Source: Atopobacter phocae ATCC BAA-285 | GTDB taxonomy: Bacteria; Bacillota; Bacilli; Lactobacillales; Aerococcaceae | Direction of reading: 5' to 3' | DNA: 57,332 nucleotides | Assembly: GCF_000526675.1 (NCBI RefSeq) | Contig: NZ_JAGN01000006.1 | Coordinates: 1 to 57,332, forward strand | In this document: in pieces, positions 30,672-53,495 of the stretch | Numbering within the stretch: the first letter of the stretch is position 1 | How the letters are laid out: every line of letters starts with the position of its first letter | Notes under the pieces: generated by a model | The model's database searches: none | What the model saw: the letters and a program-made list of their open reading frames with translations, nothing else | What the model was told of the DNA's origin: nothing | Translations under genes and position numbers: made by a program

Positions 30672-31652
30672 ATGATCAGCCCAGTGTTTGATTACGAAGA
30701 TATCCAGTTAATTCCAAATAAATGTATTGTACAAAGTAGAAGTGAGTGCGACACAAGTATTCAATTCGGTAAATTCTGTTTTAAATTACCAGTTGTACCT
30801 GCCAATATGCAAACAGTTATTAATGAGGAGCTAGCTGAACAATTTGCTTCGAATGGTTATTTTTACATTATGCATCGATTTGATGAAGCAGGACGTATCC
30901 CATTCATTAAACGTATGAACGAAAAAGGATTATACACGTCAATTAGTGTCGGTGTTAAACCTTCAGAATATGAATTTGTAGATGAATTAGTTAAAGAAAA
31001 TTTAGTGCCTGATTATATTACAATTGACATTGCTCATGGCCATGCAGAAAGTGTTATTCATATGATTAAATACTTAAAAAAACATGTGCCAGACTCTTTT
31101 GTTATCGCCGGTAATGTTGGTACGCCAGAAGGTGTGCGTGAACTTGAACGAGCAGGTGCAGATGCAACTAAAGTTGGAATTGGTCCCGGAAAAGTATGTA
31201 TCACCAAATTAAAAACAGGATTTGGAACAGGGGGGTGGCAACTTGCAGCTTTAAACTGGTGTAAAAAAGCCGCAAGAAAACCTATTATTGCTGACGGCGG
31301 AATTCGTCATAACGGCGACATTGCTAAATCTATTCGCTTTGGCGCTTCAATGGTTATGATTGGCTCATTATTCGCTGGACATGAAGAATCTCCTGGACAT
31401 GTTTATAAAAAGAATGATCAACTGTATCGTGAGTATTTCGGAAGTGCTTCAGAATTCCAAAAAGGCGAACATAAAAATGTTGAAGGCAAAAAAATTATGA
31501 TTCCAGAACGTGGAAAAATCAAAGATACATTAATTGAAATGCAACAAGACTTACAGTCATCGATTTCTTATGCCGGTGGAAAAGAATTAGATGCCATTCG
31601 TACAGTAGATTACGTTGTCGTAAAAAATTCGATTTTTAATGGCGACCGTTAA
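30672..31652 (+). CDS. guaC: GMP reductase
   Basis: Converts GMP to IMP with NADPH, linking guanine and adenine nucleotide pools. [19 protein letters not shown] and [18 protein letters not shown], with the catalytic Cys, identify the family. I take the ATG at 30672, after GGAGAGGG, giving 326 residues, the same length as B. subtilis GuaC; an upstream ATG at 30645 would add nine residues. Its own promoter and a PurBox-like site lie upstream. Confidence 0.97.
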
Positions 31653-31731: not shown

Positions 31732-31753
31732 ATAAACGAATGGAGTGTATGTT

Positions 31754-31951
31754 GTGAGTGTTGAACGTTTTTTCATCCTATTAAATTTAATCTCGGTGTT
31801 TATTTTAATTTTCATTTTTTATCCCTATATTATTACAGGTCAGTGGACTGCTATTGGCGTACTCTTTATATTTATTTTAGGTTTAGGCTTAAATACTTAT
31901 GTCATTTATCGTTACCTAAAACAGCGTAAGGGGGAACATATCAATGACTAA
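31754..31951 (+). CDS. Small two-segment membrane protein, unknown function
   Basis: About 65 residues with two hydrophobic segments (about 7-26 and 32-52) and a basic C-terminus. I choose the GTG at 31754, eight bases after GGAG (31742-31745); an earlier in-frame GTG at 31745 overlaps that site. It overlaps the folD-like gene by eight bases and is therefore cotranscribed and probably coupled. No family recognised. Confidence 0.6.
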   Translation: MSVERFFILLNLISVFILIFIFYPYIITGQWTAIGVLFIFILGLGLNTYVIYRYLKQRKGEHIND

Positions 31952-32780
31952 ACAACTAGATGGGCGAGAAGCACAGGCTTATTATATTGAACAGTTGAAA
32001 CAAAAAACAGAAGAATTAAAAAGTCGAATGATTTATCCAACCGTCATTATTTTGAACGCTTCTGAAAAGAAAGAAGCAGATTTTTTCAGTAAGCAAGTCA
32101 TTAAAACAGGTAAGAAGATGAATATTGATGTATCCATGGATTATATTCACGACTTAACACAAGAAGAAGTTCTCAAAAAAATAGAAGCTCTTAATGACGA
32201 TCCGCGTATACACGGAATATTATTACCTAAACCTTTACCTCAACATCTTAATGCGAGTCAGTTAAATGAACGAATTGATCCGCGCAAAGATATTGATGGA
32301 ACAAACCCTTATAACTTAGGTAAATTGTTACAACGCCAAGAAAGTTTTATTCCAGCAACCGTTCGAGGTGTAATGCTTTTATGTGAATATTATCAAATTG
32401 ATTTTCAGGGAAAAAATACGCTAATTATTGGTCAAAGTGAGATTGTTGGTCGTCCAATGGCTATTGTCGCATTAAATAAACGAGCAACCATCAGTATTGC
32501 TCATACAGCAACCAAAAACTTGAGTGAATTAACTAGTCAAGCGGATCTCATTATTTCAGCAGCAGGCGCACCTAACTTGATTACTGAATCAATGATTCAA
32601 CCACAAGCAATTTTAATCGATGTAGGGACAACCTTTTTATCAGATGGTAAATTGCATGGAGATATTTCAAAAAAAGCCAAGGCGATTGCTCAACAAGCTA
32701 GCCCTGTCCCAGGAGGAGTAGGGCCTTTAACCACATTAGCTTTGTTTGAACAGCTCATAAATTATTTGCATCATCAATAA
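31944..32780 (+). CDS. folD: FolD-like methylenetetrahydrofolate dehydrogenase/cyclohydrolase, divergent
   Basis: FolD interconverts methylene-, methenyl- and formyl-tetrahydrofolate. The NADP domain has IGQSEIVGRP, ADLIISAAGAP and the C-terminal PVPGGVGPLT, and KDIDG is kept, so the family is clear. However, a gap-free N-terminal alignment to canonical FolD puts Phe48 at the usual Tyr, Val52 at the catalytic Lys, and Pro95 at the Gln of QLPLP (here LLPKPLP). The usual cyclohydrolase residues therefore seem lost. It may be a dehydrogenase-only form or have another role. Length 278. Confidence 0.85.
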   Translation: MTKQLDGREAQAYYIEQLKQKTEELKSRMIYPTVIILNASEKKEADFFSKQVIKTGKKMNIDVSMDYIHDLTQEEVLKKIEALNDDPRIHGILLPKPLPQHLNASQLNERIDPRKDIDGTNPYNLGKLLQRQESFIPATVRGVMLLCEYYQIDFQGKNTLIIGQSEIVGRPMAIVALNKRATISIAHTATKNLSELTSQADLIISAAGAPNLITESMIQPQAILIDVGTTFLSDGKLHGDISKKAKAIAQQASPVPGGVGPLTTLALFEQLINYLHHQ

Positions 32781-49213: not shown

Positions 49214-51652
49214 TTAGATTACATGTTCTGTTCTTTCAATAATATCATCTTGTGTTACTTTAGATAAAGCATTAAAGAATGCGGAGTACCCAGCAACTCG
49301 CACAATTAAATCTCTATATTTTTCTGGATGTTTTTGTGCGTCAATTAGCGTTTCTCTTGAAACTACATTATATTGAATGTGATATCCTTTTAATCGGTTA
49401 AAGAAAGCTTGTAGTAGCATAATTAATTTTTCTTTATCTTCTTGTTTCGCTAAAGTTTGAGGGTTTACTTTTTGGTTTAATAATACCCCACCTAAAATGT
49501 CTTCAGTAGGTAATTTACTTACTGATTTCAAAACAGCTGTTGGTCCATTTTGATCCATATTGTGTGATGGTGAACATCCTTCTGCTAACGGAGTCCATGC
49601 TTCCCTACCATCAGGAGTAGCCATCGTTCCACGACCTTGTCCAACATTGGCTGAAATTGATGAAGTTCCTGAATAGCGAATTCCTCCAATTGGTCCTCTA
49701 CCGTAGCGAGTATTCGGATATTTTTTAATTTCATCAATATAAATATCGTAAGCTTCTGTCACAAGTGAATCTACATAATCATCATCGTTTCCGTATTTAG
49801 GTACGTCATTTAAAATGATGGATTGAATTTCTTTACTCCGATCACTTTCCCAATTAGTAGTTAAAGCTTCCCACAATTCGTTTGTCGTAACGGTTTGTTC
49901 TTCAAACACAAGTTTTTTAATAGCTGCTAACGAATCAGCTAGGTTGGCTATCCCTACTTGGAGTGCTGAAATATAATCGTAAACTGCTCCACCTTCTTTT
50001 AGCGTTTTACCTCTTCCGATACAGTCATCTGTTAAAGCTGAACATAAAATGTCAGGTACTTCTTGCTCAATTCCTAAATCGATAGAATTTTCAACTATTA
50101 CACTCATTCGCGTTAACTCACGCAACGTTTTATCCCATGATTTCTCTAAGTCTTCAAACGATTTCATATCTTTGAAATGACCATATGGTTTGGTGAAACG
50201 TTTTCCTGATACTGGATCAATACCATCATTCATTGCAATCATTAAAATTTTAGGGAAGTTAATGTAACTCATCCCGGTACAACGATAGCCCCACTTGCCT
50301 GGAACAGCTGTTTCAACACAACCAATCGCACTATAGTTATAGGCATCTTCTTCCGAAACACCATATTTAATAAACGATGGAATAATAACTTCATCATTAT
50401 TAAATGCTGGCATACCAAATCCAAGTTTCATTACTTCGATTGCCATATCCATAAATTCTTTATTGAGATTCGCATGATATCTAACCGATAAGTTCGGCTG
50501 TGGTAATTTGGTTAGAGCAACACTTCTTAAAACAAGGAAAGATAGCTCATTAACGGCATCTTTTTTATCTTTTGTTTGACCACCAATTGTAACGTTTTGG
50601 TATAGCGGACTACCAGCACTACTATAAGTGTGTGCTTGACTCCGTACTTTATTAATCGTTAACGTTTTAATCCATAAGTTAGTTAATAACTCTAATGCTT
50701 GTTCTTCTGTAATGATTCCTTTTTTAATGTCGTTCATATAATATGGATAAATATATTGATCAAACCTTCCATATGATAATGAATGACCGTTAGACTCAAT
50801 TTGTAAAATCAACTGAATAAACCAAGTAGACTGAATGGCTTCTGCAAATGTTTCTGCTGGTTCAAATGGTACTTTCTTACAAATTCGACTAATCTCTAAT
50901 AATTCTTCTTTCCGCGAACCTGTAACATCTTTAGCTTGCTCTTCAGCAAGTTTTGAGAATCTTTCAGCATAAGATTTAACCGCATCAATAACAATTAGAA
51001 CTGCATTGTAAAAATGATACTTTTTAATACTGTCTGGATCAGTTAAATCAAGATTTGCTTTTGCTTGTAATGTGCGTTCTTGATAATCTTTCAATCCATA
51101 TTTTAATACTTTTTCATAATTCACTGCTAAATGGGCATCTCCGGAATTCATCTTACCTTCCATTCCAAAGAATCCTTCTTGCATGTATACATCAACTTCT
51201 TCAGGTAATAAGGCACCTGCTTTTGCTCTTAAGTTATTTTTCTTCCAAAATGATTCAATCGACCGTAAATCACTTTTAGTTTGTTCTGAAATATAAAATA
51301 CGTCCCCATCTCTTTTTTCGAATTTATCAAGTTCGTTAATAACGAATTCCAGAGTATATTCAGGGAATATTGGTGCATCTTTATTAGATGCTGCTTGATT
51401 TCCGACGATTAACGTGTCATCTTCAATATAAATCGACATATTTTCCAAAATATTTTTAAGTGCTAATGCACGTTTCATGACATTAGGCTGTTCTTGATGT
51501 TTTTGATACGTTTCAGTAACTAAGAGTGCGCGTTCTGCACAAATATATGGTTTCTTATCAAGTACTTCATCTCTATAATGATTCATGCGCTCTGTTAATT
51601 GACCAAAATCATAAGTCGATCCATTATTTAAATTATATACAGACGTTTTCAT
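49214..51652 (-). CDS. Glycyl radical enzyme, YbiW/PflD-like C-O lyase (annotated elsewhere as formate acetyltransferase 2)
   Basis: Glycyl radical enzyme of 812 residues. The radical loop is RVAGYSAFF with Gly788, and the active-site loop is IGCVETA with Cys445 and Glu447. A single Cys followed by V-E, rather than the Cys-Cys of pyruvate formate-lyase, shows it is a dehydratase/lyase-type enzyme. Length is close to E. coli YbiW (810, from memory). YbiW was reported to open the ring of 1,5-anhydroglucitol 6-phosphate; the neighbouring aldolase and PTS support that role. Oxygen-sensitive by family. Confidence 0.9.
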   Translation of the reverse strand: MKTSVYNLNNGSTYDFGQLTERMNHYRDEVLDKKPYICAERALLVTETYQKHQEQPNVMKRALALKNILENMSIYIEDDTLIVGNQAASNKDAPIFPEYTLEFVINELDKFEKRDGDVFYISEQTKSDLRSIESFWKKNNLRAKAGALLPEEVDVYMQEGFFGMEGKMNSGDAHLAVNYEKVLKYGLKDYQERTLQAKANLDLTDPDSIKKYHFYNAVLIVIDAVKSYAERFSKLAEEQAKDVTGSRKEELLEISRICKKVPFEPAETFAEAIQSTWFIQLILQIESNGHSLSYGRFDQYIYPYYMNDIKKGIITEEQALELLTNLWIKTLTINKVRSQAHTYSSAGSPLYQNVTIGGQTKDKKDAVNELSFLVLRSVALTKLPQPNLSVRYHANLNKEFMDMAIEVMKLGFGMPAFNNDEVIIPSFIKYGVSEEDAYNYSAIGCVETAVPGKWGYRCTGMSYINFPKILMIAMNDGIDPVSGKRFTKPYGHFKDMKSFEDLEKSWDKTLRELTRMSVIVENSIDLGIEQEVPDILCSALTDDCIGRGKTLKEGGAVYDYISALQVGIANLADSLAAIKKLVFEEQTVTTNELWEALTTNWESDRSKEIQSIILNDVPKYGNDDDYVDSLVTEAYDIYIDEIKKYPNTRYGRGPIGGIRYSGTSSISANVGQGRGTMATPDGREAWTPLAEGCSPSHNMDQNGPTAVLKSVSKLPTEDILGGVLLNQKVNPQTLAKQEDKEKLIMLLQAFFNRLKGYHIQYNVVSRETLIDAQKHPEKYRDLIVRVAGYSAFFNALSKVTQDDIIERTEHVI

Positions 51653-52687: not shown

Positions 52688-52706
52688 TGAAGAAGGAGTG
52701 ATAACA

Positions 52707-53495
52707 TTGAACGCAACAAAAGAAGCTACTGCATGTATATTTAATATTCAAAAATTTAGTATTCACGATGGACCTGGAATTCGAACGGTTGTGTTTTTTA
52801 AGGGTTGCCCTTTACGTTGCTATTGGTGTGCTAATCCAGAATCACAAAACCGGAAACCGGAAAAAATATGGAGTCCAACTAAAAATAGCTATACAACAGT
52901 TGGAGAATATAAGACAGTTGATGAAATTGTTGATGTAGTAATGAAAGATTTACCATTTTATGAAGAATCTGGCGGAGGAGTTACGTTATCTGGTGGCGAA
53001 GTATTACTACAAGGTGAGTTTGCTATCGAGTTATTAAAAAAATTAAAAACACTTGGGATTAATACGGCAGCAGAAACAACAGGCTTTGCTAAAAGTGATT
53101 TATTCCAAACATTTATTTCTTATATCGATCATTTATATTTTGACTTTAAGCATCATGATTCGCTGATTCATAAAAAAGGAATTGGTACAGGAAATGAACA
53201 AATTATCAAAAATTTAGCTTATGCAGTTGAACATCACCCCGACTTAACTGTTAGAATACCAATCATACCAAATTATAATAATTCTTTAGAAGATGCCAAT
53301 TCTTTTGCTAGTATACTAAGTGAAATTGGCGTCAAATATGTTGAATTACTTCCGTTTCATCAATTTGGCGAAAAAAAATACGATAATTTAAATCGTGATT
53401 ATTCATTAAAAGATGTGCCTCAACTTCATTCAGAAGATTTAGTTGAAATAGGCAATATATTTAAGGAGAACCAAATTGACTGTCTGATTAGATAA
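52707..53495 (+). CDS. Glycyl radical enzyme activating enzyme (radical SAM)
   Basis: Uses SAM and a [4Fe-4S] cluster to place the radical on Gly788 of the enzyme at 49214. The cluster motif is CxxxCxxC in GCPLRCYWCANPE, with DGPGIRTVVFF before it and GGGVTLSGGE after it. The ferredoxin-like insert that most lyase-type activases carry after NPE is missing: the text reads NPESQNRKPEKIWSPTKNSY without cysteines. I choose the TTG at 52707, eight bases after GAAGGAG, giving 262 residues. Own promoter, divergent from deoR. Confidence 0.92.
   Translation: MNATKEATACIFNIQKFSIHDGPGIRTVVFFKGCPLRCYWCANPESQNRKPEKIWSPTKNSYTTVGEYKTVDEIVDVVMKDLPFYEESGGGVTLSGGEVLLQGEFAIELLKKLKTLGINTAAETTGFAKSDLFQTFISYIDHLYFDFKHHDSLIHKKGIGTGNEQIIKNLAYAVEHHPDLTVRIPIIPNYNNSLEDANSFASILSEIGVKYVELLPFHQFGEKKYDNLNRDYSLKDVPQLHSEDLVEIGNIFKENQIDCLIR

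Follow-up and report, generated by a model that had tools for sequence, protein, structure and literature searches.

The only FolD homologue found in the Atopobacter phocae genome lacks the Tyr-Lys-Gln set of bifunctional FolD, and we consider it likely that the protein is a dehydrogenase-only enzyme without effective cyclohydrolase activity, that step having passed to a separate FchA-family protein. The gene lies at 31944..32780 on the forward strand of the window (the whole 57,332-nucleotide stretch of DNA analysed), as an intact ORF of 278 aa. MAFFT alignment and a profile of canonical FolDs both place Phe48 (32085..32087), Val52 (32097..32099) and Pro95 (32226..32228) at the positions of E. 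coli Tyr50, the catalytic Lys54 and Gln98, respectively. The substrate and cofactor features of bifunctional FolD are kept: Asp118 (32295..32297) aligns with the pterin-binding Asp121 of E. coli, and the glycine-rich PVPGGVGP motif (32703..32726) is present in the translation and the alignment. All of these features are on the forward strand, as is the NAD(P)-binding domain PF02882 (32304..32768).

Residue loss centres on the catalytic helix, with fold and NADP domain preserved

The A. phocae FolD exceeded both Pfam cut-offs (PF00763: 78.0 versus 32.8 bits; PF02882: 176.2 versus 27 bits). Structure prediction and alignment with FolD, which the earlier note had proposed as a check, confirmed the fold. 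The AlphaFold2 model, built from 14 sequences and read for backbone fold and not for side-chain geometry, had a mean pLDDT of 93.7 (80 for residues 41-50) and matched FolD structures at Z 36-39 (E. coli 1b0a: Z 36.4, rmsd 1.6, 278 residues). With both Pfam domains and the FolD fold, the protein belongs to the FolD/MTHFD family. Its closest relatives reached 38% identity at best among nine contig loci and 42% among whole genomes. The best NCBIfam FolD equivalog match was NF010787 (237.2 bits versus a cut-off of 423), a test that does not discriminate, because the canonical FolD of the related genome G011 also fell below all NCBIfam cut-offs shown (best 303.1 versus 355 bits). FolDs are as a rule annotated as bifunctional enzymes, a name borne by most NCBIfam models to which the A. 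phocae protein matched.

Conservation was scored over columns at least 90% conserved among 55 Tyr-Lys-Gln FolDs. The A. phocae FolD kept none of the seven conserved columns at E. coli positions 41-62, a region that includes the catalytic helix (modelled as residues 43-58; 32070..32117, forward strand), together with 14/25 over the whole N-domain and 32/40 in the C-domain. Its nearest relative, the canonical G011 FolD, kept 6/7, 22/26 and 33/41, respectively. Residue loss in the A. phocae protein is thus focused on the catalytic helix, and the claim of the earlier note that the NADP domain and the C-terminal PVPGGVGP are retained is borne out by the PF02882 match and the C-domain columns. Phe at position 50, Val at 54 and Pro at 98 were each unique to A. 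phocae among 188 aligned FolD rows, three of which were unreadable or cut at one or more of the four scored sites.

The cyclohydrolase residues appear to have been lost in place

Upstream of folD lie guaC, encoding an IMPDH/GMP reductase domain (30672..31652, forward strand), and a gene for a 68-aa hydrophobic protein (31745..31951, forward strand), the last 8 bases of which coincide with the start of folD. Among the loci compared, guaC directly neighbours folD in A. phocae and G011 only, and in each of the two a small hydrophobic protein is encoded between these genes. The small proteins of G011 and of the genus mate G001, where one stands at the same place downstream of guaC, resemble that of A. 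phocae by eye. The A. phocae FolD was sister to the canonical G011 FolD in two trees (96/95; SH-aLRT 99) and, on its long branch, fell outside the main dehydrogenase-only clade (Ala54; Met/Leu/Phe98) in both. Because a canonical FolD occupies the same locus in G011 and is the sister sequence, we infer that the ancestor of the A. phocae FolD was a canonical enzyme encoded beside guaC and that the cyclohydrolase residues were lost in place in this lineage, separately from the main clade. The canonical G011 protein at the same locus makes A. phocae useful for comparison.

In the genus mate G001, the same state was arrived at by another route. Both of its FolDs belong to the Ala54 clade and no folD is found beside its guaC and small protein, suggesting that the FolD of the old locus was replaced by members of the dehydrogenase-only clade. 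One G001 folD, encoding a protein of dehydrogenase-only type, is followed downstream by gcvT, gcvH and genes that by eye are gcvPA-gcvPB (L110, 9140-14907), as if tied to glycine cleavage.

The length of the A. phocae branch, among the longest at 2.52 and 2.19 in the two trees, bears on another reading, in which FolD is decaying or has no folate catalysis at all, Fhs gives 10-formyl-THF, and methylene-THF comes from elsewhere, for example glycine cleavage. The emptied 41-62 region would fit such decay, as would the existence of a long-branch FolD without FchA in the genome G016. We nevertheless regard this reading as unlikely: the ORF is intact, Asp118 is kept, the whole fold is modelled confidently, and the C-domain is conserved to the same degree as that of canonical G011. 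In addition, thymidylate synthase (ThyA) is present and serine hydroxymethyltransferase (SHMT) was not found in the A. phocae genome, so that a source of methylene-THF is needed.

Independent alignments give a single residue register

The earlier note had derived the three replacements from a gap-free alignment running from PTVIIL to the helix ending MNI, and this register held. With E. coli K-12 FolD (L072) as reference, MAFFT gave the same placement as phmmer and as the profile built from the 55 Tyr-Lys-Gln FolDs, which aligned gap-free over that stretch and carried the highest posterior mark at the columns of Phe48, Val52 and Pro95. Other registers that would rescue a catalytic Lys were considered and rejected, since MAFFT, phmmer and the canonical-only profile all agreed on one. 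BLASTP with E. coli FolD covered residues 64-272 only and is therefore silent on the catalytic helix.

These alignments also weigh on the idea that FolD is still bifunctional through other residues, such as Lys50, Lys54 or Lys96. All three lie near, the first two in the helix and the third beside Pro95, but the gap-free helix alignment puts Lys50 at the place of E. coli Ala52 and Lys54 at that of Lys56, each two residues off the catalytic place, and Gln98 and Tyr50 are likewise replaced. Retained bifunctionality is accordingly very unlikely.

Mutants of other FolDs are consistent with a dehydrogenase-only enzyme

In the excerpts of PMC5688156, cyclohydrolase activity of the E. coli FolD K54N mutant was undetectable and dehydrogenase activity was about 19%, which agrees with a dehydrogenase-only reading of the A. 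phocae protein; Q98H kept about 8% dehydrogenase, with cyclohydrolase estimated at 1%. For P. aeruginosa FolD, passages of PMC3338484 describe a Lys that serves the cyclohydrolase as general acid/base and is positioned by the Gln, while the Tyr makes van der Waals contact with the substrate and the Asp contacts the pterin. The earlier note names all three residues as needed for cyclohydrolase activity; Tyr50 is not a purely cyclohydrolase residue, as Tyr mutants of the E. coli and silkworm enzymes, in the part of PMC6443876 consulted, had activity nearly abolished or lost substrate affinity, dehydrogenase function included. It follows that dehydrogenase activity of the A. phocae FolD is not assured; Phe48 retains the aromatic ring of the replaced Tyr.

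The same positions matter for antifolates. Carolacton, a natural inhibitor, needs and binds Lys54 and Tyr50, and K54N was insensitive to it (PMC5688156, in excerpt).

The A. phocae genome carries fchA beside fhs and no detectable SHMT

The A. phocae genome (1.67 Mb in 82 contigs) is 97.5% complete, which leaves room for an SHMT gene or a second folD in a gap. A genome search for a second, canonical folD, another check named in the earlier note, returned one match, the gene at 31944-32780. The only FchA-family gene found (PF04961; C19:11381-11917) lies on another contig, directly beside fhs (C19:9615-11276), in the order pheS-pheT-fchA-fhs-folT-folC, with pheS and pheT named by eye, the FolT-type ECF component by TIGR04518 (96.1 bits versus a cut-off of 60) and FolC by TIGR01499. 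The suggestion of the earlier note that FolD may be dehydrogenase-only, or may be partnered by a separate cyclohydrolase, is thereby supported.

The FchA protein matched PF04961 at 216 bits (cut-off 24.5) over model positions 1-179 of 182 and was below the cut-off of the NCBIfam methenyl-THF cyclohydrolase model NF045657 (184.8 versus 275 bits). Nine FchAs from genomes with histidine degradation formed a group with it (89/96; highest identity 56%), on an unstarred branch of a tree with weak inner support, in which 8/20 inner branches were starred. Histidine degradation was rejected as its role in A. phocae, the formiminotransferase domain FTCD_N giving no match in the genome and the cluster neighbours being pheS-pheT, fhs, folT and folC. 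The protein would thus be kin to FchAs of histidine-degradation clusters, now placed in a folate cluster of a genome without a formiminotransferase gene.

SHMT (PF00464) gave no match in the A. phocae genome, whereas the same model matched 14/14 controls and 52/60 genomes of the relatives sample. The single PF00551 protein is Fmt and not PurN. Because SHMT was not found while ThyA, Fmt and Fhs were, one-carbon units probably flow from formate, and may reach methylene-THF, needed for thymidylate, by way of Fhs, FchA and FolD. Fhs would make 10-formyl-THF from formate, FchA would interconvert 10-formyl-THF and methenyl-THF, and FolD would exchange 5,10-methenyl-THF and 5,10-methylene-THF with NAD(P), the products being used by Fmt (10-formyl-THF) and ThyA (methylene-THF). 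With FchA covering the methenyl-THF/10-formyl-THF step, FolD would be free to lose its cyclohydrolase site.

A stronger form of this scheme can be offered only tentatively and is perhaps not the correct one. The network would be a one-way formate line, comprising Fhs, an FchA drawn from a histidine-degradation set, and a FolD acting solely as a methenyl-THF reductase that feeds thymidylate synthase; in a cell without SHMT or any further demand for the oxidative cyclohydrolase step, the site in FolD would have decayed in place. If so, the A. phocae FolD would be naturally insensitive to carolacton.

Two further observations concern SHMT and formate. SHMT was absent from 8/60 genomes of the relatives sample (A. 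phocae, or G000, with G006, G008, G015, G016, G029, G039 and G047), and FchA was present in 6/8 of these versus 14/52 of the others. Within the window, a glycyl-radical enzyme of the PFL2-3 family (49214-51652, reverse strand), scoring 934 bits but below the threshold of each specific model shown, is accompanied by an activase (52698-53495, forward strand); the PFL2-3 family is broad, and the match does not establish a formate source.

Loss of the Tyr-Lys-Gln set coincides with FchA across genomes

We compared FolD residues with FchA content in 157 genomes with readable FolD, comprising 60 relatives and 97 further genomes of the phylum sample. That sample held 99 genomes including A. phocae, which was counted once, with the relatives; G141, without a FolD match, was left out. 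Two genomes were set by hand: G074, counted as canonical through its second FolD, and G128, the two FolD pieces of which are cut by contig ends and both lack Tyr-Lys-Gln. G061, which also has a 53-residue, stop-ridden match, was counted as canonical by another FolD.

The results showed that 50/157 genomes had no full-length Tyr-Lys-Gln FolD, and that FchA was present in 49 of these 50. Conversely, 78 of the 79 genomes without FchA kept the set. Canonical FolD was retained in 29 of the 78 genomes with FchA, and 26 of these 29 also carry FTCD_N, the histidine-degradation formiminotransferase, which is another use for FchA beside canonical FolD; the three with canonical FolD and FchA and without FTCD_N were G083, G137 and G150.

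Among the relatives, FchA occurred in 11/12 genomes without the set versus 9/48 with it (Fisher p = 4.9e-6, a value that ignores kinship). FTCD_N lay within about 1 kb of FchA in all nine relatives with canonical FolD and FchA, and the wider neighbourhood, inspected in three of them, held a histidine-degradation set by eye. Ten of the 11 FchA genomes without the set had no FTCD_N, and in the remaining one, G002, it is far away. In the phylum sample, FchA was present in 38/38 genomes without the set versus 20/59 with it, and 39/39 genomes without FchA kept the set; these figures count G129 as lacking a full-length canonical FolD, the alternative count giving 37/37 and 21/60. FTCD_N was found in 17/20 phylum genomes with both canonical FolD and FchA and also in 16/38 genomes without the set, and thus fails to tell the groups apart in this sample. 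The single genome without either the set or FchA, G016 among the relatives, also lacks ThyA and SHMT. Its FolD (L071 / L108) is very divergent, with Ile at Lys54 and Glu at Asp121, and the genome has Fhs.

The pattern is strong in counts and weak in independent events. The fewest changes on the tree for the link between residues and FchA numbered 7, or about seven independent events. In the four independent pairs on well-supported branches, FchA differed in the same way in 2.2, in the opposite way in 0.1 and not at all in 1.7 (sign test, median p 0.5); the independent pairs are too few for the tree-corrected test to reach significance.

That FolD is dehydrogenase-only and FchA is not its partner, acting elsewhere as a cyclodeaminase while methenyl-THF opens spontaneously, is hardly plausible: the step can indeed be spontaneous and E. 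coli mutants without cyclohydrolase survive (PMC5688156, in excerpt), and the A. phocae FchA groups with histidine-degradation FchAs below the NCBIfam cyclohydrolase cut-off, but the absence of an FTCD_N match means that A. phocae would lack this route to the usual cyclodeaminase substrate, fchA sits beside fhs, folT and folC, and FchA accompanies nearly every loss of the Tyr-Lys-Gln set.

The A. phocae FolD appears to be an independent and more extreme case of a known division of labour

The division of labour between FolD and FchA is already known. According to the passages available of PMC7219735, which cites work on Clostridium perfringens, some organisms pair FolD with a separate FchA, and fhs-fchA-folD clusters have been described in acetate oxidisers (PMC3584212, in part). 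A. phocae shows the gene content of this pairing: its FolD has lost the cyclohydrolase residues, and its genome encodes FchA. In C. perfringens, FolD reportedly acts together with Fhs and with FchA as a distinct cyclohydrolase. The A. phocae arrangement resembles this in having FolD beside a separate FchA and Fhs, and differs in that its FolD belongs to another clade, the Tyr is also lost, and the gene is far from fchA-fhs. With bifunctional FolD, as in E. coli (1b0a; MTHFD, PF00763 and PF02882), it shares fold, length, the Asp121 equivalent, the NADP domain and PVPGGVGP; unlike that enzyme, it has Phe, Val and Pro for Tyr50, Lys54 and Gln98 and an entirely unconserved 41-62 region.

Lys54 and Gln98 are likewise missing from the clade with Ala54 and Met/Leu/Phe98 (G001, G012, G018, G030, G040, G047, G054 and the Erysipelotrichia locus L009). 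FchA occurs in these genomes or at these loci, and in several its gene is the direct neighbour of folD. However, this clade keeps Tyr50 and forms a separate group (100/95), whereas the A. phocae FolD is sister to the canonical G011 protein. Yeast MTD1 (1edz), a monofunctional NAD-dependent dehydrogenase, has the same fold and the dehydrogenase-only character proposed here; at Z 29.4 and 21% identity to the A. phocae model it lies far below the bacterial FolDs and represents an independent lineage. As to FchA, the A. phocae protein matches the FchA/formiminotransferase-cyclodeaminase C-terminal family (PF04961) and groups with FchAs beside FTCD_N, but, unlike these, it occurs in a genome without FTCD_N and is under the NF045657 cut-off. 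The A. phocae FolD appears to be an independent, more extreme case.

No published link between residues 50/54/98 and FchA was found in the open-access literature, subscription papers being mostly outside that search. Together, these residues and FchA predict from sequence which FolDs have lost the second reaction.

Other FolD arrangements

A FolD type with Tyr and Lys and with Glu at Gln98 made up 21/188 rows (for example L174, L203 and L162), and every genome with such a protein, in both samples, has FchA. G129 carries, on contig 75 (L235, 837-1373), a 178-aa FolD piece with the Tyr-Lys-Gln domain and the PVPGGVGP helix in which the NADP domain is missing. The piece adjoins an xseA-like gene, and the genome also has a Gln98Glu FolD and FchA; a possible interpretation is the reverse case, a cyclohydrolase-only FolD, or else a remnant.

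Paired arrangements were observed as well. In the Chloroflexota loci L002, L004, L005, L006 and L008, two folD genes are adjacent: the first has DGTNP, with Ile replacing the catalytic Lys, and the second has DGFHP and the Tyr-Lys-Gln set. In Rhodococcus koreensis (L003, 5384-6888) and Mycolicibacterium wolinskyi (L007), the end of an fchA-family ORF overlaps, by 4 bases, a folD in which Ile occupies the catalytic Lys position, and the two genes are preceded by a large ORF resembling, by eye, an oxidase of the dimethylglycine-dehydrogenase type.
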